Shown piece after piece: positions 1,106-40,672 of a stretch of 41,005 bases of DNA; within the stretch, counting starts at the first letter, position 1; every line of letters begins with the position of its first letter. The stretch comes from Clostridium sp. (GTDB taxonomy: Bacteria; Bacillota; Clostridia; Clostridiales; Clostridiaceae), in NCBI GenBank assembly GCA_031292145.1, contig JARLHR010000002.1:1-41005 (forward strand), read 5' to 3'. A program made the position numbers and the translations under genes. The notes beneath the pieces were generated by a model that saw nothing but the letters and a program-made list of their open reading frames with translations, was not told the origin of the DNA and did not search any database.

Positions 1106-1849
1106 TTATTTTTGAATTCCTTTCCTTTTCCTCATTGAATCTTCACCATCAATAAAAATTGTATAAGAATCATGAACAATTCTATCTAGAATAGCATCCG
1201 CTAACGTACTTTCTCCAATTTTGCTGTGCCAACCACCAGGAGCAAACTGTGAACAGAATATTGTTGATGATTTCTTATGCCTAGCTTCAATTATTTCTAG
1301 TAAGTCACGCGATTCAGTATTTGTTAATGGCACTAGTAACCATTCATCTAGAATTAAAAGAGAAATACGTTTATATTGTTTCATAACTTTTTGATATATA
1401 CCTTCGCCCCTTGCAACTGCAAGTTCGTTTAATAAATCTGGTAGTCTAATATATTTTACTGTATAGAAATTGCGACATGCTGCTATTCCCAAAGCAGAGC
1501 TTATATATGTCTTCCCTGAGCCAGTTGCTCCTAAAATTATAACATTATGCTTTTCTTCTATATAAGTACAAGCAGCGAGTCGTATTATTAAAGCTTTATC
1601 TAATTTTCTATCAGAGTGATATTCTATATTTTCTATGCAAGCATCTGGTGAGTAAATATCAGATTTCCTTATCAACCTATCCAGTTTATTATTTTTTCTT
1701 TTAGCCCATTCCATATCAATTAATAATCCAAAACGTTCTTCAAATGTTAAATCGTTCAAAGATGGATCTTTTAGTTGATTATCATATATTTCAGCCATTG
1801 AGTTTAATTTCATTTCAATCATTTTTGTTATTGTACTTTGACTAATCAT
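1106..1849 (-). CDS. istB: IS21-family transposition helper ATPase IstB
   Basis: This 247-aa protein is the AAA+ regulator that loads onto target DNA and activates the IstA transposase. A Walker A motif, GATGSGKTY, lies near residue 107, and a Walker B-like LLILDEW near 166. The length is normal for IstB (about 250 aa) and the C terminus looks complete. Its ATG overlaps the istA stop by one base (TAATG), the usual translational coupling in this family. Nothing in the gene itself suggests it is broken. Confidence 0.95.
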   Translation of the reverse strand: MISQSTITKMIEMKLNSMAEIYDNQLKDPSLNDLTFEERFGLLIDMEWAKRKNNKLDRLIRKSDIYSPDACIENIEYHSDRKLDKALIIRLAACTYIEEKHNVIILGATGSGKTYISSALGIAACRNFYTVKYIRLPDLLNELAVARGEGIYQKVMKQYKRISLLILDEWLLVPLTNTESRDLLEIIEARHKKSSTIFCSQFAPGGWHSKIGESTLADAILDRIVHDSYTIFIDGEDSMRKRKGIQK

Positions 1850-3376
1850 TATTTGTTCCTCCCATAATAATCTGCACCTCTAGTAAATCCAAAGTTTTCA
1901 CTGTCGGAAATTTCTTTTAAAGGTTGATTAATATTTTTATCTTGACCATTCTTTATTATTGTTTGAACACTTTTATAACTAGGAGTTACAGAATAAGAAA
2001 GGGCCTTCTTACATGCACATTCTACCCTTTGAATAGAATATTTATCCGCAAGCTTTAAAAGCGCCATACAAGATTTATAAGCTTGCTGCTCAACTTTATG
2101 AATAGAAAGAATACTTTTAACAACAGCTAAAGTATTTGGTCCAATTTTAGTTGCCCATGAGATAAATCTTTCGGAATTCCAAGTAAGATATTGTTGATGA
2201 TTTATAGGCATATGATCTGTTACAGTGCTATATTGACCTTCTCGACCATATAACCGAGGGTGAGAGCAAATTCTATGATTATTAAAAAATACTTCAACAA
2301 CATTTCTAGTGATACGTACATCCACTTTATGTTTTATATATTCATAAGGAACACTGTAGTGCATTTTTTCAATAGCTATGTGATAATTGAATTGTACTGT
2401 AGCTATTTTCCAGGTAGCTAGTTCATATGGTGTAACAGGTAGTGGCAATAGTGTACATTTTTCTTCTTCAATAAATGTACTATATCTACTACCTGGCTTT
2501 TTTTGAAATGGTTTATTATTGAATTCAGTTAATTTTATTTTTATTGCATTATTTAATTCTCTAACTGAAAAGAATTGTTGTCTACGAAGCGAAGCCAGAA
2601 TCCATGTAGAGATTATACCAACAGTACCTTCTACTGTTGCCTTATCCTTAGGTTTTCTAACCCTTGCAGGAATTACAGCCGTATCATAGTGTTCTGCCAT
2701 TTCATGATAAGTTTTGTTTATTACGGGTGTGTACCAGGAAGTCTTATCAACTCCAGTCTTAAGGTTATCAGGAATTAGAATTCTAGTTGATCCACCAAAG
2801 AAATTGTACGCATTGACATGGGCGGAAATCCAGTTTTCTTGATTTTGAGAAAGAAATGCTTCAACATAAGCGTATTGACTACAGGATAATACTGCAACAA
2901 ATATATAGGCTTTAATTTCTCCTCCAGTATCTGTATCAATTATTGTAGCCGTCTGACCAGCCCAGTCAACTTCAAGTTGTTCACCTGGTTTATGCTTAAT
3001 ATACATTGTAGCTTTATTTATATTGGCATATCTTCTGTAATAGTTACAAAATTGAGAATACATAAAAGGAATTTCATTACTAGATTTACATAATTCACAA
3101 TACTCAGTCCATAGAAGGCTTAATGTAACTCCACTTTTAGCCATCTCCTTATGAATATATTCACAATCCGGTAACCTTCTAGAAGAAGGTTCAACTCTTT
3201 CTGGAAATAACCTCGATATTATTTCATCATTAGATAGGTCTTTTAGCTCATTCCATCCAATATCGCAAGCGTATGGTATTAGATACTGTATTTCTTGAGC
3301 ATTCGCAGCTTTTTGCAATACCCCTTTGACTAATGCCCTGGTTATGCAACCTAAGGATTTCTTTATAATTGGTCAT
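1849..3376 (-). pseudogene. istA: IS21-family transposase IstA with apparent N-terminal frameshift
   Basis: The large frame (3318 down to 1849) holds the integrase core with its DDE residues in the contexts EVDWAGQT, IPDNLKTG and KATVEG. The expected N-terminal helix-turn-helix is in another frame: an ATG at 3374-3376 with a perfect AGGAGGT site (3384-3390) starts MTNYKEILRLHNQGISQ, continues to SRNTVSNTI, then stops at 3248-3250. A +1 shift near 3270-3285 would join it to CDIGWNELKD. The large frame alone would have to start at TTG 3318, inside the HTH region and without a ribosome binding site. So the gene is probably inactivated by an indel, or less likely is read by frameshifting. The 3' end is coupled to istB. 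Confidence 0.85.
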
Positions 3377-3521: not shown

Positions 3522-4709
3522 TCTCAAAATATTATTCAAAAATCAGATATTATACTAAAATATGGATGCAATCCGCATCAAAACCCAGCAAGAATTTATG
3601 TAAAAGACAAGGCATTACCATTTGAAATTCTTAATGGTAATCCAGGTTATATTAATTTCATGGATGCTTTTAATTCATGGCAATTGGTTAAAGAATTAAA
3701 AGAAATAATAGGATTGCCTGCGGCAGCATCTTTTAAACATGTAAGTCCTGCTGGTGCTGCAATAGGGATTCCTTTAACGGATGCATTAAAGAAAGCATAT
3801 TTTGTAGAAGATATAGAATTATCTTCAGTTGCATCTGCTTATGCAAGAGCCAGAGGCGCAGATAGGATGTCATCCTTTGGTGATTGGGTGGCTATAAGTG
3901 ATGTTGTAGATTTACCCACAGCAATAATTTTAAGCAGATCTGTTTCAGATGGAATAATTGCTCCAGGATATACAGATGAAGCACTTGAACTTTTAATGAA
4001 TAAGAAAAAAGGAAGTTATTGCATTATTAAAATGGATTATAATTATGAGCCTGAGAATTTAGAAAAGAGAGACATATATGGCATAATATTTGAACAGAAG
4101 AGAAATAATATTCAATTAAGACATGATATGCTTAATAATATAGTAACTAATAATAAGAGTATCACAGATGAAGCAAAACGAGATTTGCTTATTTCAATGA
4201 TTACATTAAAATATACTCAGTCTAACTCTGTTTGTTTCGTTTTAGATGGTCAGGTAATTGGTGTTGGAGCAGGACAACAATCACGAATTCATTGCACAAG
4301 ATTGGCTGCTTCAAAAGCAGATATATGGTATTTGAGACAGCATCCTAATGTACTTAGTTTATCTTTTAAAGAAGGCATTTCAAGACCTAATAAGGATAAT
4401 CTTATAGATCAATATCTTAGGGATGACACTACTATTGAGGAAATGAAAGATTGGGGCAAAATGCTTAATGAGATACCTGATAGATTAACAAAGGAAGAAA
4501 AAGTTAAATGGTTATCTAATTTATCAGGAGTATCTTTAGGTTCAGATGCATTTTTTCCATTTAGAGATAATATAGATAGAGCTTATCAAAGTGGAGTAAA
4601 CTATATTGTTCAGCCTGGTGGATCAGTAAGAGATGCTGTAGTAATACAAGCATGTAATGAATATGATATAGCAATGGTTTTTTCAAATATAAGATTATTT
4701 CATCATTAA
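3522..4709 (+). pseudogene. Stand-alone AICAR transformylase (PurH transformylase-like), split by IS21 element
   Basis: AICAR transformylase transfers the formyl group from 10-formyl-tetrahydrofolate to AICAR in the penultimate step of purine synthesis. The frame after the IS end reads through KYGCNPHQNPARIY, then SFKHVSPAGAA with the family's Lys-His pair, then SVASAYARARGADR, and ends with SVRDAVVIQACNEY. This is the transformylase fold without the IMP cyclohydrolase domain, about 390-400 aa in the stand-alone clostridial form. The only in-frame ATG after the insertion is at 3660, which would drop the NPHQ segment and has no good ribosome binding site, so activity is doubtful. Its original start (981) lies below the ZTP riboswitch. 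The coding body is otherwise free of stops, suggesting a recent insertion. Confidence 0.88.
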
Positions 4710-12943: not shown

Positions 12944-13552
12944 ATGCAAAAATGGAGAAAGATTGTACTTATATTTGCTTTAATTATGGCAATAATAGGC
13001 GGAATTATAGGATTTGCTATGGAAAAATCAGGCATGGGAAAAGTGAAGGCATTAGGAAATTTAGATGTTTTCAGTATATTTATGTTCAGTTTATTAGTAT
13101 TTATGGTTGTTTGTGTAACTTTTGATATATATAGAATAAATAAAGGTAAAAAGCAGTTTGGTAATATAAAATTTGAAGTGACGTTAAAGACAAGAAAAAG
13201 ATTAAGAAATGTATTAATATTTTTTATAGTAGATACAATTTTTGAATTCATTCTATTTGTTACGTCAATTGATATGCACATACTTCCTGCATGTTTTATG
13301 ATACTATTATTAACATTAATGTGGGGAATGCATTATATAATCGGTGATGGTATTAGTGAAAATGGCATATTACATTGGGGAACTTATCATAGTTGGAGTG
13401 ATATAAAATCCTATAAAATTGAAAATGAAACATTACTTGTAATGAACATATTAAGTAAATCGTTGGGATTTAAATACAATAATGAAATTAAATTCGATTT
13501 TAATAGAGAATTTAAGGATGATATAGAAAGTTTTTTAGCAGAGAAATTATAA
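12944..13552 (+). CDS. Membrane protein with C-terminal soluble domain, 202 aa
   Basis: GGGGGAG precedes TTG-ATG; I chose the ATG. Four hydrophobic segments are visible near residues 6-28, 43-63, 90-108 and 113-132. A soluble tail of about 70 residues (SENGILHWGTYHSWSDIKSY to DDIESFLAEKL) follows. This tail resembles the bPH-like or DUF5673-type cytoplasmic ends found on small Firmicute membrane proteins; the assignment is tentative. A near-identical copy of the tail's DNA lies 1.2 kb upstream at 12109, so the gene was once duplicated here. Confidence 0.6.
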   Translation: MQKWRKIVLIFALIMAIIGGIIGFAMEKSGMGKVKALGNLDVFSIFMFSLLVFMVVCVTFDIYRINKGKKQFGNIKFEVTLKTRKRLRNVLIFFIVDTIFEFILFVTSIDMHILPACFMILLLTLMWGMHYIIGDGISENGILHWGTYHSWSDIKSYKIENETLLVMNILSKSLGFKYNNEIKFDFNREFKDDIESFLAEKL

Positions 13553-13636
13553 GGCGTACTAGTTGTATCACAAATGACTTGTACAATATTGATTTCCAAT
13601 AATATTAGACTAATTAGCGTTATCATTATGACAGAA

Positions 13637-13670
13637 AACCCGCAGGTAAATTAATAGTTACTTGTGGGTT
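13637..13670. terminator. Hairpin at the end of the 13651 gene, probably a terminator
   Basis: AACCCGCAGGTAA pairs with TTACTTGTGGGTT (two G-U pairs). It overlaps the stop of the minus-strand gene and lies downstream of the plus-strand gene, so it may serve both. The T-run after it is weak. Confidence 0.5.
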
Positions 13671-13857
13671 GTTGCTTATATTTTTTACTACTGAGTAAAT
13701 CTGAATTAACTACTGTTGTGGATTGATAAAAACATACATAGTCCTTGGTTTGATTAAATACTTTATATCCAGCACTTTTTAATACTTCAATTTCTTTTTT
13801 AAAATCCTTAATTGAAGTATCTTCTCGATATATTTCGATTGATTCCCTAAGTACCAT
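13651..13857 (-). CDS. Small hypothetical protein, 68 aa, behind the Spo0E-like gene
   Basis: The ATG at 13857 follows GGTGGGG. The sequence is soluble and helical in its first half (DTSIKDFKKEIEVLKSAGY), then YVCFYQSTTVV. It starts 26 bases after the stop of the Spo0E-like gene, so the two form a small operon. I do not recognise the family. Small proteins of this kind are common beside Spo0E-like genes and in mobile regions of clostridia, so co-function is a reasonable guess. Confidence 0.55.
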   Translation of the reverse strand: MVLRESIEIYREDTSIKDFKKEIEVLKSAGYKVFNQTKDYVCFYQSTTVVNSDLLSSKKYKQQPTSNY

Positions 13858-13883
13858 CCAAGCCCCACCTTTTATATAAAATA

Positions 13884-14051
13884 TTATTCATTATTTGTAT
13901 TGAGTTGCTCTTTGCATGCAGCAACGATTACTTTATCTAATTTTTGACTTAATTCCAAAACATAACCGCTACTTAATTCTTTATTGTTTGTTATTGCCAT
14001 ATGCAACATATCTCTCCACATATCTATATTATACGGTATCATATCATCCAT
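13884..14051 (-). CDS. Spo0E-like aspartyl-phosphate phosphatase, 55 aa
   Basis: The ATG at 14051 encodes a two-helix protein. The second helix carries the family signature LELSQKLDKVIVAACKEQL (S-Q-x-L-D), and the first helix MWRDMLHMAITNNKELSSG matches the preceding arm. Spo0E-like proteins dephosphorylate Spo0A~P or related response regulators and hold back sporulation. Length is typical. An AGGAGG lies 13 bases before the ATG, a longer gap than usual, with no better in-frame start. It is the first gene of a two-gene unit with the 68-aa ORF. Confidence 0.75.
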   Translation of the reverse strand: MDDMIPYNIDMWRDMLHMAITNNKELSSGYVLELSQKLDKVIVAACKEQLNTNNE

Positions 14052-14487
14052 TATTCTTACTAAACCTCCTGCCTGTACATATATTAAATAATATTGTTAG
14101 TTATAGATATTATTAGAGAAACGAAAAAATTGTAATATGCATATTTGTTAATCATTTAAAAAGTTAAGAAAGCATCTCATGCTATCTCAAAAAACTTTTA
14201 AGATATAAATTTAGAATATTTTATATGAACTGATGTTTGCGTAAAGACAAGAACAAATCCCAATTTTCCCTCTTAATACTACCTGTTTATTTACTTTAAA
14301 TGTTTACCATGAAATCAATTATATAGTCATTTTTCTCGATTTACAAATTTAAAAAGCGTAAATGAGTTCCTTCGAATTCACTTACGCTTTGCCTTGTTTT
14401 TTGTAATATGTTTATTTCTTTTTATTGTTAAGGCATTAGGTTAATATGTGTATAAATAAATGATATTGCTTTCATATTAATTAGATA
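14052..14487. other. Non-coding stretch with a terminator-like hairpin
   Basis: No gene is seen. AAGCGTAAATGAGTTC and GAATTCACTTACGCTT (about 14354-14392) form a strong hairpin. Read on the minus strand it is followed by TTTTT, so it would end leftward transcripts from the decayed peptide gene at 14488-14592. Confidence 0.55.
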
Positions 14488-14592
14488 TTATGTGATTTTA
14501 CTAGTATTGCTATTTGTGACTTTTATTGAAGTAAACGCAACATTTATTAACAATATTGATGTTGTCAATACTGTTAATATTATTTTTTTATG
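14488..14592 (-). pseudogene. Decayed second signal-peptide precursor
   Basis: The frame reads HKKIILTVLTTSILLINVAF then TSIKVTNSNTSKIT and stop. This parallels the intact precursor at 14793-14954 (MKKIILSAVAITMLLSNVAF then ASTRTSNANSAKIK). The start codon has become CAT, the AGGAGG is gone, and a stop cuts off the part that would hold the mature peptide. The upstream box (14660-14680) is still recognisable 68 bases before the former start. It is a duplicate that has lost coding function. Confidence 0.75.
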
Positions 14593-14659
14593 AAAATCAA
14601 GTTACTTAAAAAGTAAAGCGAATCGACATTATTTTGCTTACCATTGTAATTTAATGATT

Positions 14660-14680
14660 GAATTTGCGGTGAAAAAAGTA
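14660..14680 (-). promoter_or_regulatory. Upstream box of the decayed precursor
   Basis: On the minus strand, TACTTTTTTCACCGCAAATTC matches the intact precursor's box at 19 of 21 positions. It lies the same distance from a -10-like TACAAT. The conservation suggests a regulator binding site covering the -35 position. Confidence 0.55.
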
Positions 14681-14729
14681 TTTTCTAATTTTTTTTGAGT
14701 TTGATTAAAACCATCTAACTTTTACCTAT

Positions 14730-14782
14730 AAAAAATGGATTTTGCAATAGTCATCCTTAATTTAGTATTGCAAAATCCGTTT
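14730..14782 (-). terminator. Terminator of the signal-peptide precursor gene
   Basis: On the minus strand, ACGGATTTTGCAATA and TATTGCAAAATCCAT form a long stem, followed by TTTTTTATAGG. It lies just after the precursor stop and should end its transcript. Confidence 0.88.
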
Positions 14783-14792
14783 GTTATTGTTA

Positions 14793-14954
14793 TTAATGTG
14801 GATCGTATGTATCTAAATGAATCACATTACTTTGTTCTACAGTAGATACTGCCTTGATTTTAGCACTATTGGCATTTGATGTTCTTGTTGAAGCAAATGC
14901 CACATTTGATAGTAGCATTGTTATTGCTACTGCTGATAATATAATTTTTTTCAT
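14793..14954 (-). CDS. Secreted signalling-peptide precursor of an RRNPP-type system, 53 aa
   Basis: The ATG at 14954 follows GAGGAGGATGATTGT. A longer reading from an upstream start would overlap the regulator and has no site. The N terminus is a classical secretion signal (KK, then a hydrophobic core, cleavage likely after VAFA near residue 21). It is followed by a Ser/Asn/Lys-rich stretch and the C-terminal SNVIHLDTYDPH. Short exported precursors directly behind a TPR regulator are typical of RRNPP quorum sensing: the tail is trimmed outside, re-imported and bound by the regulator. The mature peptide is probably within the last 8-10 residues, which is inference. It has its own promoter-like region and terminator. 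Confidence 0.8.
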   Translation of the reverse strand: MKKIILSAVAITMLLSNVAFASTRTSNANSAKIKAVSTVEQSNVIHLDTYDPH

Positions 14955-15020
14955 ACAATCATCCTCCTCAAAATCGTAGATAGTCAACATTCTTTCATTT
15001 ACTATTATAACATAATAATG

Positions 15021-15041
15021 GAATTTGCGATAAAAAAAGTA
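15021..15041 (-). promoter_or_regulatory. Putative regulator box upstream of the peptide precursor
   Basis: On the minus strand, TACTTTTTTTATCGCAAATTC lies 67 bases before the precursor start and ends 11 bases before TATAAT. It therefore covers the -35 position, where no good TTGACA is seen. That arrangement is typical of an activator-dependent promoter. The same box at the same spacing precedes the decayed copy. The regulator at 15046-16347 is the obvious candidate to bind it. Confidence 0.55.
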
Positions 15042-15045
15042 ATTT

Positions 15046-16347
15046 TTAAATTTTTTTAATTGTTTTAATTTTATCAATTGATTTTCTACTATAATATTTA
15101 CTTTTTTCTTCATTAGTCACTCTATAATACTCTCCAACTTCTGCATAAATTAAAGAATAATCTGTATTTAACTCTTTTGCTTTTTCAACCATCATTATTA
15201 AATTTTTTTCATCATCCTTGTTTATATAAATCAAAACTAACTCATAGAGTATTTTCAAAATCAAATTTAAATTCTCTTTATCTTTTTTTTCACATATATC
15301 TAATGCTTGTAAAAGATAATGTTCGATATCTTCATTTAAATTTTGAAATATTTTTGCTGCAAAATATAGATACTCTCCAATATCCTCATTATTTGGATTA
15401 TATAACAAAGATTCTTTAATATACTTTGCAGCAGACTTGTAATTTTTTTTATTAACGTATAATTCAGATAAATTTCTGTAGGTCATGGTTATGAAGTCTT
15501 TATCATCATATTTCATAGCCATATTTAATGTTTCTTTATATTCCTTTTCTGATTCATCAAATTTATTTTGATCATTTAAACAATTTGCATACACCATTTT
15601 TATTTTTAGTAACATCCTTTTATCCTTTATTTGAAATTGCTCTTTTAGTATCTTAAAGTATTTTAAAGCAGAATCATATTGACCTAACTTTTTATATGCC
15701 AATGCCTTGTAATAAAAGATCATTTCGTAAAGTTCATTATTGCCTATATCATTATTTAATTTCTCTGCGTAGTCTAATTGTTGTAATGCGTTAATGTACT
15801 TATCGCTAAATATGTTATTTCTGGATTTGTATATATAGAAAATTACCTCCCCAACTTTATATTGAGAATCAATACTTATCTTTAATCCCATATCGCACAT
15901 ATAATCACTTTTGGTATGAATATATTTATAGTAATAAAAATCAGCAGTTAATTTATAGAACTCTATTTTTTTATTATCTGCAATGCTGTACTTCTTAATT
16001 AATTCTTCTGACTCAGAAATTTTTTTTTCAAGCAAATTAATTTCTAGCGAACCAATTTCTATTTTTTGTAACTCATTTAAAATATTATTTTGGAAAACAT
16101 AATTTGCTTGTTCATCTTCATCTATCATTAATTCCTTTGGTGTAATTAGAAATATATCCATTCCTTTCTTTTTAGCAATTTTATTTAAATTTTCAGCAAT
16201 TCTATATGCTAAATTATAACTTAACTTTTGTTTGTTGTTTTCGATTAGACTTATCATATTTCTTGAACATATACCTACTGAAATTTCCTCTTGAGTTGCT
16301 CCAAGCATATTTATTCTGTATTTCTTTAATCGTTCTCCTTGCATCAT
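15046..16347 (-). CDS. RRNPP-type quorum-sensing regulator: HTH plus TPR repeats
   Basis: This 433-aa cytoplasmic protein has an N-terminal Xre-type helix-turn-helix (GERLKKYRINMLGATQEEIS through SRNMISLIENNKQ, about residues 4-45). About 350 residues of TPR helices follow, with units such as FYYKALAYKKLGQYDSALKY and YRNLSELYVNKKNYKSAAKY. This layout and length fit the PlcR/NprR/Rgg-like family, whose TPR domain binds a re-imported peptide. The peptide precursor lies 91 bases downstream on the same strand. ATG 16347 fits the HTH but has no close ribosome binding site: GGGGGG lies about 24 bases up, followed by a tiny ORF (ATG AAA TCA TGA) that overlaps the start. Translation may therefore be coupled, or may begin at a non-standard ATA. 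Confidence 0.85.
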   Translation of the reverse strand: MMQGERLKKYRINMLGATQEEISVGICSRNMISLIENNKQKLSYNLAYRIAENLNKIAKKKGMDIFLITPKELMIDEDEQANYVFQNNILNELQKIEIGSLEINLLEKKISESEELIKKYSIADNKKIEFYKLTADFYYYKYIHTKSDYMCDMGLKISIDSQYKVGEVIFYIYKSRNNIFSDKYINALQQLDYAEKLNNDIGNNELYEMIFYYKALAYKKLGQYDSALKYFKILKEQFQIKDKRMLLKIKMVYANCLNDQNKFDESEKEYKETLNMAMKYDDKDFITMTYRNLSELYVNKKNYKSAAKYIKESLLYNPNNEDIGEYLYFAAKIFQNLNEDIEHYLLQALDICEKKDKENLNLILKILYELVLIYINKDDEKNLIMMVEKAKELNTDYSLIYAEVGEYYRVTNEEKSKYYSRKSIDKIKTIKKI

Positions 16348-16706
16348 GATTTCATTATCAAATATGGTTATCCCCCCTTTTTCTGCTATTTTATCATTTG
16401 AAAATAAATATTCTAACTCTATATTACTAAAAATGGATTAAAAATAAAATGCCTTTTTATGCTATTTTTTGGATGTTTTATCCTGTTATTTGTATATAAC
16501 ATAGAATTTAGAGTATATTTCTATATATCGACATATTATACTAACTTGATTTAATATTTAACTTTCCTATACCAAATTTAATAAAAAAAGGTATAATTAG
16601 TATTGATATGTGGACTTATTTCAAGTTATTCATTATCAAACCGTAAAAAATGTTTATGTAGATGAACTAAATAAGAATTAAGTTAATTAATATGAAGGAG
16701 AAGAAA
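16348..16706. other. Divergent intergenic region upstream of the RRNPP regulator
   Basis: This is AT-rich DNA with no gene. It must hold the leftward promoter of the regulator; GGGGGG at about 16373 (minus strand) is the only ribosome binding site. No inverted repeat or box like that at 15021 was found here. Confidence 0.4.
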
Positions 16707-16781
16707 ATGGATATTAATGAATATCAAAAGTTAGCAATGACAACTTTAAATCGTGAATTAAGTTCAATTAATCTGATTTAA
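16707..16781 (+). pseudogene. N-terminal fragment of a MazG-like pyrophosphohydrolase gene
   Basis: After GAAGGAGAAGAAA an ATG encodes MDINEYQKLAMTTLNRELSS, the typical first helix of MazG-like nucleotide pyrophosphohydrolases (about 100-110 aa when whole). It then changes to INLI and stops at residue 24. The catalytic EExxE region is absent, so only the 5' end remains. Confidence 0.55.
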
Positions 16782-16815
16782 ATAAAATTGTTTAATAAAA
16801 GGAGCAGTTTAGTAA

Positions 16816-17078
16816 ATGAGAAATATTAGTAAAATAACTGTAACTTCAATGTTATCATCATTGATAGTGGTTATTGGAGCAGTTGCTCATACAACATCTA
16901 ATAAATACATTAGGATTCTTATTCCTATTTTAGTAATCATATGATTATGTTTACTTTCAAAGAAATTATTTTAACTACTGCAGTTTAGGGGATAGTGGGT
17001 ATTGGTATTAGCACACATTCATGGAAAAGTAATGAAAGGGCATATGATAATTATGTGAAACAACATAATAAAATTTAA
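16816..17078 (+). pseudogene. Disrupted small membrane protein gene
   Basis: An ATG after AAAAGGAGC encodes 42 residues with two hydrophobic stretches (MLSSLIVVIGAVAH and RILIPILVII) and stops at 16942-16944. Other frames continue with coding-like sequence ending THSWKSNERAYDNYVKQHNKI at about 17078. This suggests a longer former protein of about 80-90 aa broken by a stop and a frameshift. The first 42 codons alone could still be made. Confidence 0.4.
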
Positions 17079-17126
17079 TCTTTAGAATTGTCTAAATTAC
17101 TAAAATCAAGACTAATATACATTGGT

Positions 17127-17151
17127 AATTAACTATGAAGTAGTAGACAAA
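17127..17151 (+). repeat. 25-bp repeat shared with 12620-12645
   Basis: ATTAACTATGAAGTAGTAGACAAAT occurs here and directly before the 63-bp repeat at 12642. In this region the two parts are about 400 bp apart with a gene (17247) between them. Confidence 0.8.
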
Positions 17152-17246
17152 TAGTAATTTGTGGAGTAATAAATAATTTAGAATGAAGAACGAACTGTTG
17201 CCTAATTATTTTAGCCATTGAAAAAATACAAGGTGGGTGTATAAAA

Positions 17247-17489
17247 ATGAAAGAAAAGTTTAGTAGTATCTATCCGATAGTTAATTCTATACTTCTAATA
17301 AGTACATTAATATTTAAAAGTATTGATTATATACTTTGGATTCTAATATTAGTACTGAATATTATTTCATTAAGCATATCATTAAAGGAGGATACGAAAG
17401 CAAAAGTCGGTATAAAGATATTTGGAGGAATAACTCTTGTTTTATCAACATGTTGTGTGCTTTATAAACTTTATGAAATTATTCTATAA
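17247..17489 (+). CDS. Small membrane protein, 80 aa
   Basis: AAGGTGGGTG precedes the ATG. Three hydrophobic segments (about residues 8-25, 27-46 and 57-78) span nearly the whole protein, with one charged link (KEDTKAKVG). The family is not recognised. It lies between the two separated halves of the repeat found intact at 12620-12704, as if it had been inserted or exchanged there as a cassette. Confidence 0.5.
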   Translation: MKEKFSSIYPIVNSILLISTLIFKSIDYILWILILVLNIISLSISLKEDTKAKVGIKIFGGITLVLSTCCVLYKLYEIIL

Positions 17490-17553
17490 ATGACTGTGAA
17501 TAAATAATATTATAAAAGAATATTAAAACAAATTCCAATCTATCTGATTAGAT

Positions 17554-36160: not shown

Positions 36161-36187
36161 TTTAGGTATAAGGGAGGAGGAGTGGTT

Positions 36188-38116
36188 ATGAGTATGAACT
36201 TTAAGGAATTTATAGAAACAGATAGAGACAAGTATAGCACCCAAAAATTTGAAGGAAGTTTTTTAGATTATTTAAATATCGTTAAGGAGAATCCAGAAGT
36301 AGTTAATCTAGCCCATAAAAGAATTTATGAAATGATAGTAAATAAAGGGGTAGAAGAATTAAAGGCTGAGGAAAATCCTAGAATACGAAAAATCTATGGA
36401 AATGATTTAATAAGAAAATATGGATTTTTCAAGGATGATTTTTTTGGGATTGATAAAGTTATTATGAAACTTGCTAGCTACTTTAAATCAGCAGCTATGA
36501 AGGGTGAAGAAGCTAGACAAGTTTTATATCTTGTTGGACCAGTTGGTGCAGGTAAATCTTCAATAGTTGAAAGTTTAAAATCTGCATTAGAAGATTGCGA
36601 GCCGGTGTATTCATTAAAAGGATGCCCAATGCATGAAGAACCTCTTCATTTGATTCCAAAGCATTTAAGACCTAAATTCCAAGAAATGCTTGGAGTCCAA
36701 ATTGAAGGTGACTTATGTCCGATATGTAAGTATAGGTTAACTCATGAGCTTAAAGGCATGTATGAAGATTTTCCAGTTGAAAGAACAGGATTTTCTATAA
36801 GATCAAGAAAAGGAGTAGGGGTAGTTCCACCAGTTGATCCTAATAATCAGGATACTTCTATATTGACTGGAGCAATTGATATTTCTAAGATGGACTTATA
36901 CTCTGAAGATGACCCGAGAATATTTTCTTTAAATGGAGCTTTTAATGTTGGAAATCGTGGACTTGTAGAATTTATTGAAGTATTTAAGAATGATGTTGAG
37001 TATCTTCATACAATAATTACTGCAACCCAAGAAAAATCTATACCATCGCCAGGAAAAGGTTCTATGATTTATTTTGATGGAGTTATAGTTGCACATTCAA
37101 ATGAAGCGGAATGGAATAAATTTAAATCAGATCATACTAATGAAGCTATATTAGATAGAATAGTTAAAGTTGAAGTGCCATACTGCTTGGAGCTAGATGA
37201 GGAAGTTAAAATATATGAAAAAATAATAAAGAAAAGTAATTTTAAAGCTCATATAGCACCGCATACTATTGAAATTGCAGCTATGTTTGGAGTACTTTCA
37301 CGGTTAACACCTTCAGCTAAAGTGGATGCTATGACAAAGCTTAAAATATATAATGGGGAAGAAATAGTTGAAAAAGGAACTACTAAGAAAATTGATGTTG
37401 GTGAGCTTAGAGAGGAAGCTGGGCAATATGAAGGAATGAAGGGAATAAGTACAAGATTTATTATAAAAGCTATAGATAATGCTCTTTCAGAATCAGGTTA
37501 TGATTGTATAAATCCGCTTAGTATAATGGAAAGCATAATAAAATCAGTAAAAGAACTTGATATAGCAGCAGATGATAAGAAGAAGTACTTGGGATTTATT
37601 CAAGATAATATTAGAAAGGAATATAACAAAATTCTTGAGAGAGAAATTACAAAGGCATTTATACATTCGTTTAGAGAACAAGCTGAAAGCTTATTTAATA
37701 ATTATATAGATAATGCAGAAGCCTATGTAAATAAGAGTAAGATAAAAGATGCTTCAACTGGAGAAGAACTTAATCCAGATGAAGAATTTATGAGAAGCAT
37801 AGAAGAACAAATTGGAGTATATGCAGCATCATCTAAAGGCTTTAGATCAGATGTAACATCATATATGTTTTATATAGTAAGAAAAGGTGGAAAATTAGAT
37901 TATACATCTTATGAACCTTTAAAAGAAGCAATAGAAAAGAAATTAACAGCTTCAGTTAAGGATTTATCTAGAATTATAACTAAGTCAAAGGTTAGAGATA
38001 AAGAACAAGCAGAAAAATATGATTCTATGGTTGAAGAAATGACAAGGAATGGATATTGTCTTCATTGTTGTGATGTGATTTTAAAATATGCTGCTAATAA
38101 TTTGTGGCGAGATTAA
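36188..38116 (+). CDS. prkA: PrkA serine protein kinase / AAA+ sporulation protein
   Basis: The 642-aa protein starts at ATG 36188 after GGGAGGAGG; the GTG at 36182 is closer to the site than usual. Walker A GPVGAGKSS lies near residue 117. A region with possible metal-binding Cys/His (KGCPMHEEP, then GDLCPICKYRL) follows, then Walker B-like and sensor motifs (RGLVEFIEVFK, IVAHSNEAEWNKF, EAILDRIVKVE). PrkA proteins are AAA+ ATPases with kinase or Lon-like protease activity, linked to sporulation and nutrient stress. It is the first gene of the prkA-yhbH-spoVR operon. Confidence 0.95.
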   Translation: MSMNFKEFIETDRDKYSTQKFEGSFLDYLNIVKENPEVVNLAHKRIYEMIVNKGVEELKAEENPRIRKIYGNDLIRKYGFFKDDFFGIDKVIMKLASYFKSAAMKGEEARQVLYLVGPVGAGKSSIVESLKSALEDCEPVYSLKGCPMHEEPLHLIPKHLRPKFQEMLGVQIEGDLCPICKYRLTHELKGMYEDFPVERTGFSIRSRKGVGVVPPVDPNNQDTSILTGAIDISKMDLYSEDDPRIFSLNGAFNVGNRGLVEFIEVFKNDVEYLHTIITATQEKSIPSPGKGSMIYFDGVIVAHSNEAEWNKFKSDHTNEAILDRIVKVEVPYCLELDEEVKIYEKIIKKSNFKAHIAPHTIEIAAMFGVLSRLTPSAKVDAMTKLKIYNGEEIVEKGTTKKIDVGELREEAGQYEGMKGISTRFIIKAIDNALSESGYDCINPLSIMESIIKSVKELDIAADDKKKYLGFIQDNIRKEYNKILEREITKAFIHSFREQAESLFNNYIDNAEAYVNKSKIKDASTGEELNPDEEFMRSIEEQIGVYAASSKGFRSDVTSYMFYIVRKGGKLDYTSYEPLKEAIEKKLTASVKDLSRIITKSKVRDKEQAEKYDSMVEEMTRNGYCLHCCDVILKYAANNLWRD

Positions 38117-38124
38117 AGTGAATT

Positions 38125-39297
38125 ATGGCAATATTTAGGGACTATACTAACAATCAAATTGATCACGACAGATCCATAGAAGATAGAAGAAGACACAGAC
38201 AGCTTGTGGAAAAATCTATAAAAGAAAATTTAGGAGATATATTATCAGAAGAAAGCATTGTTGGAGAGAGCAAAAATAAGAAGTTTAAAATACCTATTAA
38301 AGGAATTAAAGAATATCAATTTGTTTATGGGAAAAATTCTAAAGGTGTAGCAAGTGGTGTAGGAAATGAAAAAAGGGGAGAAAAGTTAGGTAATGGTAGT
38401 AAGAAATTAGCTAAAGGGAATCAAGGTGCAGGAAATGAAGAGGGTGATGATGTCTATGAAACAGAAATCACTCTCGAAGAGTTAATGGATTATATATCAG
38501 AGGATTTAAATCTACCTAATTTGGATCAAAAAAAATATTCTGAAATATTCACCGAAACAAGTGGTAAAAAAAGAGGATATCAAACTCATGGAATAAGACC
38601 TAGACTTGCTAAAAAGAAAACAGTTATGTCTAAAATAGCAAGAAAACAAGGAAAGAAGAGAGCTTTAAGGGAGCTCGAATGTGAAGATGAGCTAGATAGA
38701 TTCCCGTTTAGAGAAGAAGACTTAAGATATTATAGAGTTAAAATTAAACCTAAAAAAGATAGTAATGCAGTTATGTTATTTATTATGGACGCATCTGGAT
38801 CGATGGACATAACAAAAAAATATTTAGCTAGATCATATTTTTTTGTATTAGCAACATTTTTGAAGAGAAAGTATAACAATATAGCATTTGAGTTTATATA
38901 CCATACTACTGTTGCGAAAAGGGTAGATGAATATGAATTTTTTCATAAGTCAGAATCTGGAGGTACTTATATATCAAGCGGAATCAATGAAGCTTTAAAG
39001 GTAATTGAAGAAAAGTATCCACCAGCAGCATGGAATATATATAGTATATATGCAAGTGATGGAGATAATTGGTCAGAAGATAATGAAAGGGCAGTTATAG
39101 CAGTTAAAAATATATGTGAAATTAGCAATATGTTTGGTTATGCAGAACTTTTACCATCAACATATACAACAACAATGTATCATAAGTTTACAAAAGAAAT
39201 AACAAATGAGAATTTTGTTTCTGTAATTATAAAAGAAAAAAAGGATTTATGGGAAGCACTTAAGATTATGCTTAGGAAGGAGTTAAAGGAGGAGTAG
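38125..39297 (+). CDS. yhbH: YhbH/DUF444 sporulation protein
   Basis: The 390-aa protein begins [20 protein letters not shown], the DUF444 start. It has a Gly/Lys-rich low-complexity segment (about 95-120) and in its second half a von Willebrand A fold with the MIDAS motif [10 protein letters not shown]. Later [16 protein letters not shown] and [12 protein letters not shown] line the same metal site. It follows prkA by eight bases with only a weak ribosome binding site, suggesting coupled translation. In Bacillus it is a sporulation protein expressed in the mother cell. Confidence 0.95.
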
Positions 39298-39301
39298 GAA
39301 A

Positions 39302-40672
39302 GTGGAGTATAGTTTTAGAGATGTTGAAACTTGGAATGAGAAAATAGAGAAAAAAGTTAAGGAATACGGATTGGATTTTTATCCTCAGGAATTTGAAATG
39401 ATAAACTTCAATGAGATGATAGGATATGAAGCTTATGTTGGAATGCCTTCAAGATACCCTCATTGGAGTTTTGGAAAATCCTATGAAAAAAATAAAACTC
39501 TTTATTCTTTGAATCTTACTGGTCTTCCTTATGAAATGGTTATTAATTCAAATCCTTGCCTAGCATATTTGATGAAAGATAATACATTATTATTGCAAAT
39601 ACTAACGATGGCCCATGTATACGGTCATAATGATTTTTTCAAAAATAATAGATTATTCAAGCAAGGCACCAAGGCAAAATATACCTTAGAAATGTTTAAT
39701 TTAGATTCAAAGATAATAAGAGAATATATTGATGATCCAAGTATAGGATATTCTGAGGTAGAAAGAATATTAGATGCAGCCCATGCAATAAGATTTCAAT
39801 GTCAAAGAAATATTGGAATTAAGGAATTGACTAATGATGAAATTAAAGAAAATATTTTAAAAGAGTATGAAAATAAAAAGGAAAATCGAGGGATATTAGA
39901 TTTTAATAAAGAAATAAAATTACAAGATTTAGAGAAAATTCCCCTAGAACCTGTTGATGACCTCGCGGGATTTATAATAGAATATGGTCAATTAGAGGAA
40001 TGGGAGAAAACAATTCTAAGAATAGTTAAAAGAGAAACAGAGTATTTTATTCCGCAAATAGAAACTAAGATAATGAATGAAGGTTGGGCAAGCTATACGC
40101 ATTATAATATTTTAAAGCAGCTAGATTTGCCTCAAGAGTTGCACCTTGAGTTTTTAAAAAGACATAATGATGTAATAGCCCCTGCTATTGGTGGACTAAA
40201 TCCATATTATATTGGCTTTAAAATATTTGAGGATATTGAAAAGAAATATGGAAAAGAAAAGATATTCGAGGTTAGAGAAGTAGAAAGGGATTCTTCTTTC
40301 TTAAGGCGTTATCTAACAAAAGAATTGTGTGGAGAATTAAATTTATTCCAATATAACGAAAGGACATTTGATGTTATCATTGAAGAAATATCGGATGATA
40401 CTGGATGGAAAACCATAAGGGACACCCTTAGTTATACTGCAGGTATGGGAAACATACCATATATTAGAGTTGTAGATTTAAATAAGAAAAATAATACGCT
40501 AACATTAGAAAACGTCTTTGATGGCAGAGCATTAGAGCTTTCTTATGCAAAAGAAACATTAAAATATGTTCAAGAATTATGGGGGCATGATGTTAAATTA
40601 ATAACTAAATCAAGTGATAAGCAAGATGTTATTTTAACCTGTAATCAAGAAAAGAAAATAATCATATCCTAA
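39302..40672 (+). CDS. spoVR: SpoVR-family protein
   Basis: The 456-aa protein uses a GTG start at 39302 after AAAGGAGGAGTAGGAAA, four bases beyond the yhbH stop. Family motifs are GLDFYPQEFEMINFNEMIGY near residue 20, HVYGHNDFFKNN near residue 104, MNEGWASYTHYNIL near residue 261, and ELHLEFLKRHNDV. Conserved His and Glu in the HxxxH- and NEGWA-type motifs suggest metal binding. SpoVR is involved in spore cortex formation in Bacillus, and outside spores it works with PrkA and YhbH. Length is normal. Confidence 0.95.
   Translation: MEYSFRDVETWNEKIEKKVKEYGLDFYPQEFEMINFNEMIGYEAYVGMPSRYPHWSFGKSYEKNKTLYSLNLTGLPYEMVINSNPCLAYLMKDNTLLLQILTMAHVYGHNDFFKNNRLFKQGTKAKYTLEMFNLDSKIIREYIDDPSIGYSEVERILDAAHAIRFQCQRNIGIKELTNDEIKENILKEYENKKENRGILDFNKEIKLQDLEKIPLEPVDDLAGFIIEYGQLEEWEKTILRIVKRETEYFIPQIETKIMNEGWASYTHYNILKQLDLPQELHLEFLKRHNDVIAPAIGGLNPYYIGFKIFEDIEKKYGKEKIFEVREVERDSSFLRRYLTKELCGELNLFQYNERTFDVIIEEISDDTGWKTIRDTLSYTAGMGNIPYIRVVDLNKKNNTLTLENVFDGRALELSYAKETLKYVQELWGHDVKLITKSSDKQDVILTCNQEKKIIIS

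Follow-up and report, generated by a model that had tools for sequence, protein, structure and literature searches.

The closest described relatives of the locus analyzed here are the Qsr and QssR regulators of clostridia, which are counted as members of the RRNPP family (Bernard 2023). In Clostridium acetobutylicum, QsrA-H/QspA-H likewise pair an HTH-TPR regulator with a short precursor encoded behind it, whose N terminus is signal-like, and overexpression of QsrB led to fewer solvents and spores, an effect relieved by a synthetic peptide (Kotte 2020). In Clostridium saccharoperbutylacetonicum N1-4, spo0E-like genes were reported downstream of QSS1, 2 and 5, and spo0E-like RNA was up in the strains complemented by plasmid-borne QssR1 or QssR2, as were qssP1 and qssP2 (Feng 2020). 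The placement of a Qss system next to spo0E is thus already published; as far as the accessible text of that report goes, its authors reached no firm conclusion on sporulation. In Paenibacillus, the promoter of an adjacent spo0E gene was activated by AloR and shut off by its peptide, and the AloR-AloP13 pair of Paenibacillus polymyxa sits directly 5' of a spo0E-like gene (Voichek 2020), which likens it to our locus by architecture.

We analyzed a stretch of 41,005 nt from Clostridium sp. (contig JARLHR010000002.1, positions 1 to 41,005), hereafter the window. A sequence-only reading had described an RRNPP-type quorum-sensing locus with a live and a dead peptide precursor, consisting of a 433-aa HTH-TPR regulator and a 53-aa precursor. 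Both genes were borne out by their open reading frames and by Pfam and profile searches, and the assignment to quorum sensing agrees with the presence of a precursor at all 15 regulator loci found in the genus. Elsewhere in the window, Pfam identified IS21-type IstB and transposase genes (1106-3318, minus strand), an adjoining AICARFT/IMPCHase protein that covers only profile positions 118-311 of 311 (3660-4709, plus strand), and consecutive PrkA, DUF444 and SpoVR genes (36182-40672, plus strand).

The QssR-type regulator gene (15046..16347, minus strand) is a 433-aa open reading frame starting with ATG. Its protein matched HTH_3 with 23.1 bits, barely over the cut-off of 23, and TPR_12 with 41.9 bits (cut-off 30.1), while TPR_2 and TPR_1 also exceeded their Pfam cut-offs. 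In the ranges given by Bernard 2023, RRNPP receptors combine HTH and TPR in 250-500 aa, as this regulator does, and propeptides have 10-100 aa and lie within 400 bp; the live precursor begins 91 bp 3' of the regulator. An AlphaFold model built with 20 aligned sequences was all-helical, with a helical N-terminal domain and a TPR superhelix (mean pLDDT 92.3). Eukaryotic TPR proteins (LGN) were its top structure matches, with NprR and Rap scoring lower, so that RRNPP membership is not proven by the fold alone. One sequence search against the PDB returned three kinesin light chain matches; a second returned 113 matches, and the best 60 of these were mostly generic TPR/HTH proteins, with RapH at E 0.002. 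Compared with its closest relative, the regulator had a pN/pS of 0.30, and 0.30 to 0.40 compared with five relatives; from these ratios it looks to be under purifying selection.

The start codon conserved in the family falls at 16363-16365 (minus strand), six codons 5' of the annotated ATG. There the window reads ATA and L019 reads ATT; the other 13 regulators have ATG, GTG or TTG. The ATA codon is preceded by GGGGGG, and the conserved N terminus (M)FDNEI is still encoded. If the ATA is real, it may mean weak translation or initiation at the downstream ATG. By eye, an inverted repeat of the type CTCTGCAATG...CATTGCAGAG was seen at most 250 nt 5' of the regulator in L012, L013, L014, L015, L017 and L021; none of this type was visible 5' of the window regulator.

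The live QssP-type precursor (14793..14954, minus strand) has 53 aa, an AGGAGG ahead of its start, an N terminus that is basic and hydrophobic by a hydropathy filter, and the C terminus SNVIHLDTYDPH. Its match to the PhrK family was far under threshold (17 bits, cut-off 35). A terminator-like hairpin with a T run behind it (14730..14795, minus strand; -15.3 kcal/mol, z -7.0) occupies the gap between the live precursor and the decayed copy described below; it is absent from the output of a consensus scan.

The regulator was compared with 147 genomes, 11 of which gave a match at E 1e-8. In the genus set of 68 genomes, 15 regulators passed a threshold of E 1e-40, in 7 genomes; the 14 others are 45-73% identical to the window regulator, which is the only one in its own genome. 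A first scan of genome contigs with the regulator alone found no relatives, and none were found in viral contigs or in plasmids. At each of the 15 loci a precursor lies 60-112 nt 3' of the regulator in a 1:1 ratio, one of them starting with GTG. A profile of these precursors recovered the same 15, four decayed copies and, in genomes lacking a regulator of this kind, two weak matches (E 7e-4). By sequence, the window pair is a member of the described clostridial Qss (RRNPP) family.

The closest regulator, with 73% identity, is encoded at 2393146-2394441 of genome G038 (locus L002). From positions and a gene order that fit QSS2 and the locus tags of Feng 2020, we take G038 to be C. saccharoperbutylacetonicum N1-4. 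Of the other genomes, G032 is Clostridium sp. C2-6-12, G055 C. cibarium and G050 C. puniceum DSM 2619. The nearest relative of the window pair is therefore probably QssR2/QssP2 (Cspa_c21720/c21710), judging by identity and position; the named relatives also include QssR1, R3 and R5 of the same strain (Feng 2020). Only four G038 regulators passed E 1e-40 and the fifth regulator of Feng 2020, QssR4, was not among the matches, so the Qss family is wider than the set counted here. The window and the QssR2/QssP2 locus share the order regulator, precursor, Spo0E-like gene, 68-aa gene, and both bear a decayed copy with a promoter-like box. They differ in that the live precursor has lost this box at that G038 locus and retained it in the window, and in the C terminus, NNVYHLNTLDPN in the QssP2-like precursor versus SNVIHLDTYDPH in ours.

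Aligning regulator and precursor pairs from related clostridia, as the sequence-only reading had proposed, gave the 12-residue C-terminal consensus NNxYHLxTxDPx; the precursor was neither absent nor random at its C terminus. Over the last 13 positions of the 12 precursors without a terminal GW, the consensus was QNNVYHLxTxDPx, with an invariant D followed by P or A and a variable last residue. Mean column identity was 0.66 at the C-terminal positions, 0.64 in the spacer and 0.89 in the signal region. Judged from this alignment, the C terminus is variable yet recognisable and SNVIHLDTYDPH is one variant of it. The idea of an undescribed signalling specificity is weak on this showing, the peptide being one variant of a family already described (Kotte 2020, Feng 2020). 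Towards the C terminus, the C. acetobutylicum Qsp precursors and the window precursor both have Leu and Pro, whereas the Trp conserved in the former is absent from the window precursor and from 12 of the 15 aligned ones; the Leu, Pro and Trp reported in Kotte 2020 describe eight C. acetobutylicum precursors and do not define the subfamily. In the live precursor of L004 (Clostridium sp. C2-6-12), the C-terminal pheromone segment is tandemly repeated (NNVYHLNTQDPN SVYQLNTQDPN).

The second copy in the window is a decayed cassette tail (14447..14703, minus strand) comprising the last codons of a regulator, an intergenic promoter region and a decayed precursor. A DNA profile of the cassette, made from 14 relatives with the window excluded, was run on the window and on the reversed window. 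The live copy scored E 1.1e-58 (15105-14794), the dead copy E 6.7e-23 (14705-14494) and the next match E 0.25; a precursor-only profile gave 8.2e-33, 7.2e-13 and 0.2, respectively. The best E-values in the reversed window were 0.14 for the cassette profile and 8.4 for the precursor profile. Chance similarity was dropped as an explanation of the dead copy, since two places stood above noise and the reversed control gave nothing better than E 0.14. The dead precursor has lost its start codon and Shine-Dalgarno sequence, its frame is broken and it contains stops. The sequence-only reading was right about these losses, and wrong in taking the C terminus to be lost as well: it is out of frame and stopped, and a trace of it is still alignable to ~14447 once the window's live copy is part of the profile.

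Five such tails were found in four genomes: in the window, in L002 and L013 (both G038), in L004 (G032), and near 2.898 Mb in G051; those of L002, L013 and L004 emerged from profiles to which the window's live copy had been added. In none of the five do the start codon, the ribosome site or the reading frame survive. In the window, homology begins ~20 nt 5' of a regulator stop codon. The L002 tail holds ~120-130 nt of the regulator 3' end (nhmmer E 3.4e-28 with a longer profile, 2.2e-12 with a shorter one; tblastn E 0.002 over 14 and 30 residues), which suggests that the lost unit was a whole cassette. This comparison makes the dead copy the probable 3' remnant of another regulator-precursor cassette. 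The earlier claim that the peptide gene had been duplicated thus stands as to the duplication and is probably too narrow as to its extent, since a regulator 3' end and a promoter also belong to the unit that decayed. Regulators at the tail-bearing loci differ at pS ~0.45. In G051, the tail, its box, a Spo0E-like gene and a homologue of the 68-aa gene remain, and the 9 kb covered there contain neither regulator nor live precursor. Trees of these short sequences were weakly supported and mutually conflicting, the live and dead copies of the window pairing weakly in one (support 0.67) and not in the next. In C. puniceum, two complete tandem cassettes ~3.3 kb apart, each followed by a Spo0E-like gene, were seen on contig C184:3523-8304 (L031). 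Signal genes duplicated within a locus, as in the window, are also described for Rap-Phr systems (Even-Tov 2016); there the second copy is a putative diverged signal, whereas here its coding sequence has decayed and its promoter box has been retained.

This box is a putative promoter element of 28 bp, (T/C)CGCAAATT-N12-TACAA. Nine of the 15 live copies carry TCGCAANTT, 12 bases, and TACAA or a near match in the gap between regulator and precursor, most with a TGTCGA-like stretch downstream. In the window, the live precursor is preceded by a presumed promoter box (TCGCAAATT-N12-TATAA; 15003..15030, minus strand) with two mismatches to the family pattern; the box within the dead tail (14642..14669, minus strand) has one, at the first base. 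All five dead tails have the box, its spacing unchanged. With the columns on which eight or more of the nine live copies with a box agree as reference, the five tails kept 96/105 columns in the box, 317/445 in the coding region and 28/60 from the Shine-Dalgarno sequence to the start. For G/C columns the numbers were 20/20, 56/120 and 4/25. Columns that had ever changed numbered 0 of 4 in the box versus 23 of 24 in the coding region (p 2.4e-4), a statistic that comes from four G/C columns in copies sharing ancestry, which lowers the effective sample. A/T columns alone gave no clear separation (box 76/85 versus coding 261/325, p 0.056). In all 10 pairs of dead copies, identity was higher in the box than in the coding region, narrowly so in two.

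The G/C recount was 20/20, 56/120 and 5/30 with the window removed from the reference set, and 16/16, 46/96 and 2/20 without the one copy found only by a profile containing the box. AT-rich drift as the source of the retention was dropped on the G/C-only count, and detection bias towards box-bearing copies was dropped because four of the five tails were found by precursor-only searches and the recount agrees. The live copies of L002, L003, L004 and L013 are without a box; this group was chosen for the missing box, and its 1/16 kept is a description and no test. In the window, the live copy has a box as well, so that any split of roles between the duplicates is incomplete there.

In the 68 genus genomes, the pattern with at most one mismatch occurred at 13 sites, 11 of them at qss loci, and the reversed pattern at 0. 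Six sites were perfect, three of these within dead copies. With three deviating positions, the box of the G051 tail falls outside these site lists. The genome of the window had two sites with at most two mismatches, both at the locus; the reversed control also gave two, so it is their location and not their count that is informative. A shorter pattern, used as a regulon finder, matched 41 sites across the genus and its reversed control 32; of the 41, 9 fall at qss loci.

Downstream of the dead tail are the genes for a 55-aa Spo0E-like phosphatase (13884..14051, minus strand; PF09388, E 1.2e-7, 32 bits, cut-off 23) and a 68-aa protein (13651..13857, minus strand), DUF2812-like at a score under the Pfam cut-off. 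A Spo0E-like gene was found 3' in 12 of the 15 loci by sequence similarity, the Pfam scan covering the window and L012, and a relative of the 68-aa protein lies 3' of the precursor in 10, the window included. All five dead tails are upstream of a Spo0E-like gene. The order is box, hairpin, spo0E: behind the tail is a terminator-like hairpin (14332..14400, minus strand; -20.8 kcal/mol, z -4.9), absent from the output of the consensus scan, and 5' of the spo0E-like gene is a sigma70-like site, TTGTAA-17-TATAAT (14318..14346, minus strand; 10/12), a weak site from a scan that gave 23 sites versus 28 in shuffles. With the hairpin and this weak site between the dead box and spo0E, any effect of the box on the gene may depend on read-through, on a second promoter or on action over a distance.

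One CGCAANTT lies 396-669 nt 5' of the Spo0E-like gene in 11 of the 12 loci; the window has two, 617 nt (dead) and 978 nt (live) from the gene. The L003 pair of G051 has neither a box nor, in the fetched stretch, a Spo0E-like gene downstream. Overall, the box accompanied 13/13 units linked to spo0E versus 0/3 others (p 0.002), or 1/3 with a partial box counted (p 0.025), in a comparison that ignores shared ancestry. The partial box is at the precursor of L021, which has no spo0E; in this locus and in L015, also without spo0E, CGCAAATT lies 277 and 299 nt past the precursor start, respectively, ahead of small genes that look alike by eye. Four Spo0E-like genes of the same subtype away from qss loci (G050:C193, G060, G043 and G051:6260083) had no box within ~1.5 kb, nor did G050:C174, where only the 68-aa gene is present. 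A role as general promoter of this Spo0E/68-aa gene type was dropped on account of these five places.

The sequence-only reading had not noted that the dead copy retains a box, that this recurs at other loci and that a Spo0E-like gene lies downstream. Decayed precursors with a kept promoter did not appear in the titles and abstract beginnings of the literature searched. The reading that we favor, and that we hold about evenly balanced between right and wrong, is that the dead copy beside the Qss pair is retained as a control element for spo0E, with signal coding and promoter split between the duplicates. The precursor would be exported, its C terminus cleaved and the peptide re-imported to modulate the HTH-TPR regulator encoded next to it. 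Locally, that regulator probably acts on the spo0E-like gene further downstream; the encoded phosphatase would remove the phosphate from Spo0A~P and so restrain sporulation and solvent formation. In the second cassette the coding part would have decayed and the promoter/operator box, the putative site of QssR binding, would have been retained for its continued part in transcription towards spo0E, with regulator and signal supplied by the first cassette. The results of Feng 2020, Voichek 2020 and Kotte 2020 are consistent with an increase of Spo0E by the regulator that the peptide ends; on the precedent of AloR and QsrB, spo0E control at the window locus may run in the same direction. Counting against the favored reading are the few G/C columns behind the box statistic, the hairpin and weak site ahead of spo0E, the boxless Spo0E-like genes away from qss loci, the partial box of L021 and the CGCAAATT of L015 and L021 at loci that have no spo0E, the reversed-control yield of the shorter pattern, the box on the window's own live copy and the ATA at the conserved regulator start. 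In a more specific and more tentative version, somewhat short of an even chance, a tandem duplication was followed by a split in which one copy retained regulator and signal, its box lost in sister loci, and the other, stripped of both, retained the operator that links the regulator to the Spo0A-phosphatase gene; the G051 element, far from such regulators, would perhaps be worked in trans by a boxless paralogue.

An ordinary Qss pair next to neutral debris would give a similar picture if the second cassette had died and its box persisted by chance or because the death was recent. Duplications of Rap-Phr loci are frequent (Even-Tov 2016) and decayed duplicates are thus expected; the box, moreover, has only those four G/C columns and no clear excess in its A/T columns. 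We nevertheless regard mere debris as rather unlikely, since less than half of the coding G/C positions survived in the very copies that kept every one in the box, the tails occur at loci whose regulators differ at pS ~0.45, and the G051 tail has outlasted both regulator and live precursor.

The duplication could also have involved the peptide gene alone, the copy gaining a new specificity before it died. The regulator part of the window's dead tail is so short that a small duplication would look alike, and the weak pairing of live and dead copies in one tree points the same way. The longer regulator remnant in the dead tail of the closest relative and the complete tandem cassettes of C. puniceum argue against this, and we consider it improbable. 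Most doubtful of all is that the box drives a short non-coding RNA from the dead tail, terminated at the hairpin and active in its own right: a retained promoter box with a hairpin behind it would suit such an RNA, but the transcribed part changes faster, and no Rfam family was found across 13000-17500 (one match, 21 bits, family cut-off 80).

The favored reading, a decayed cassette kept for its control of spo0E, bears on the route from Qss systems to Spo0A, which Kotte 2020 and Feng 2020, in their accessible text, left open; the rare 28-bp pattern is a concrete candidate sequence for regulator binding. The retained box also offers a reason why decayed signal genes persist, and cautions that a pheromone gene counted as "dead" may still work as regulatory DNA.
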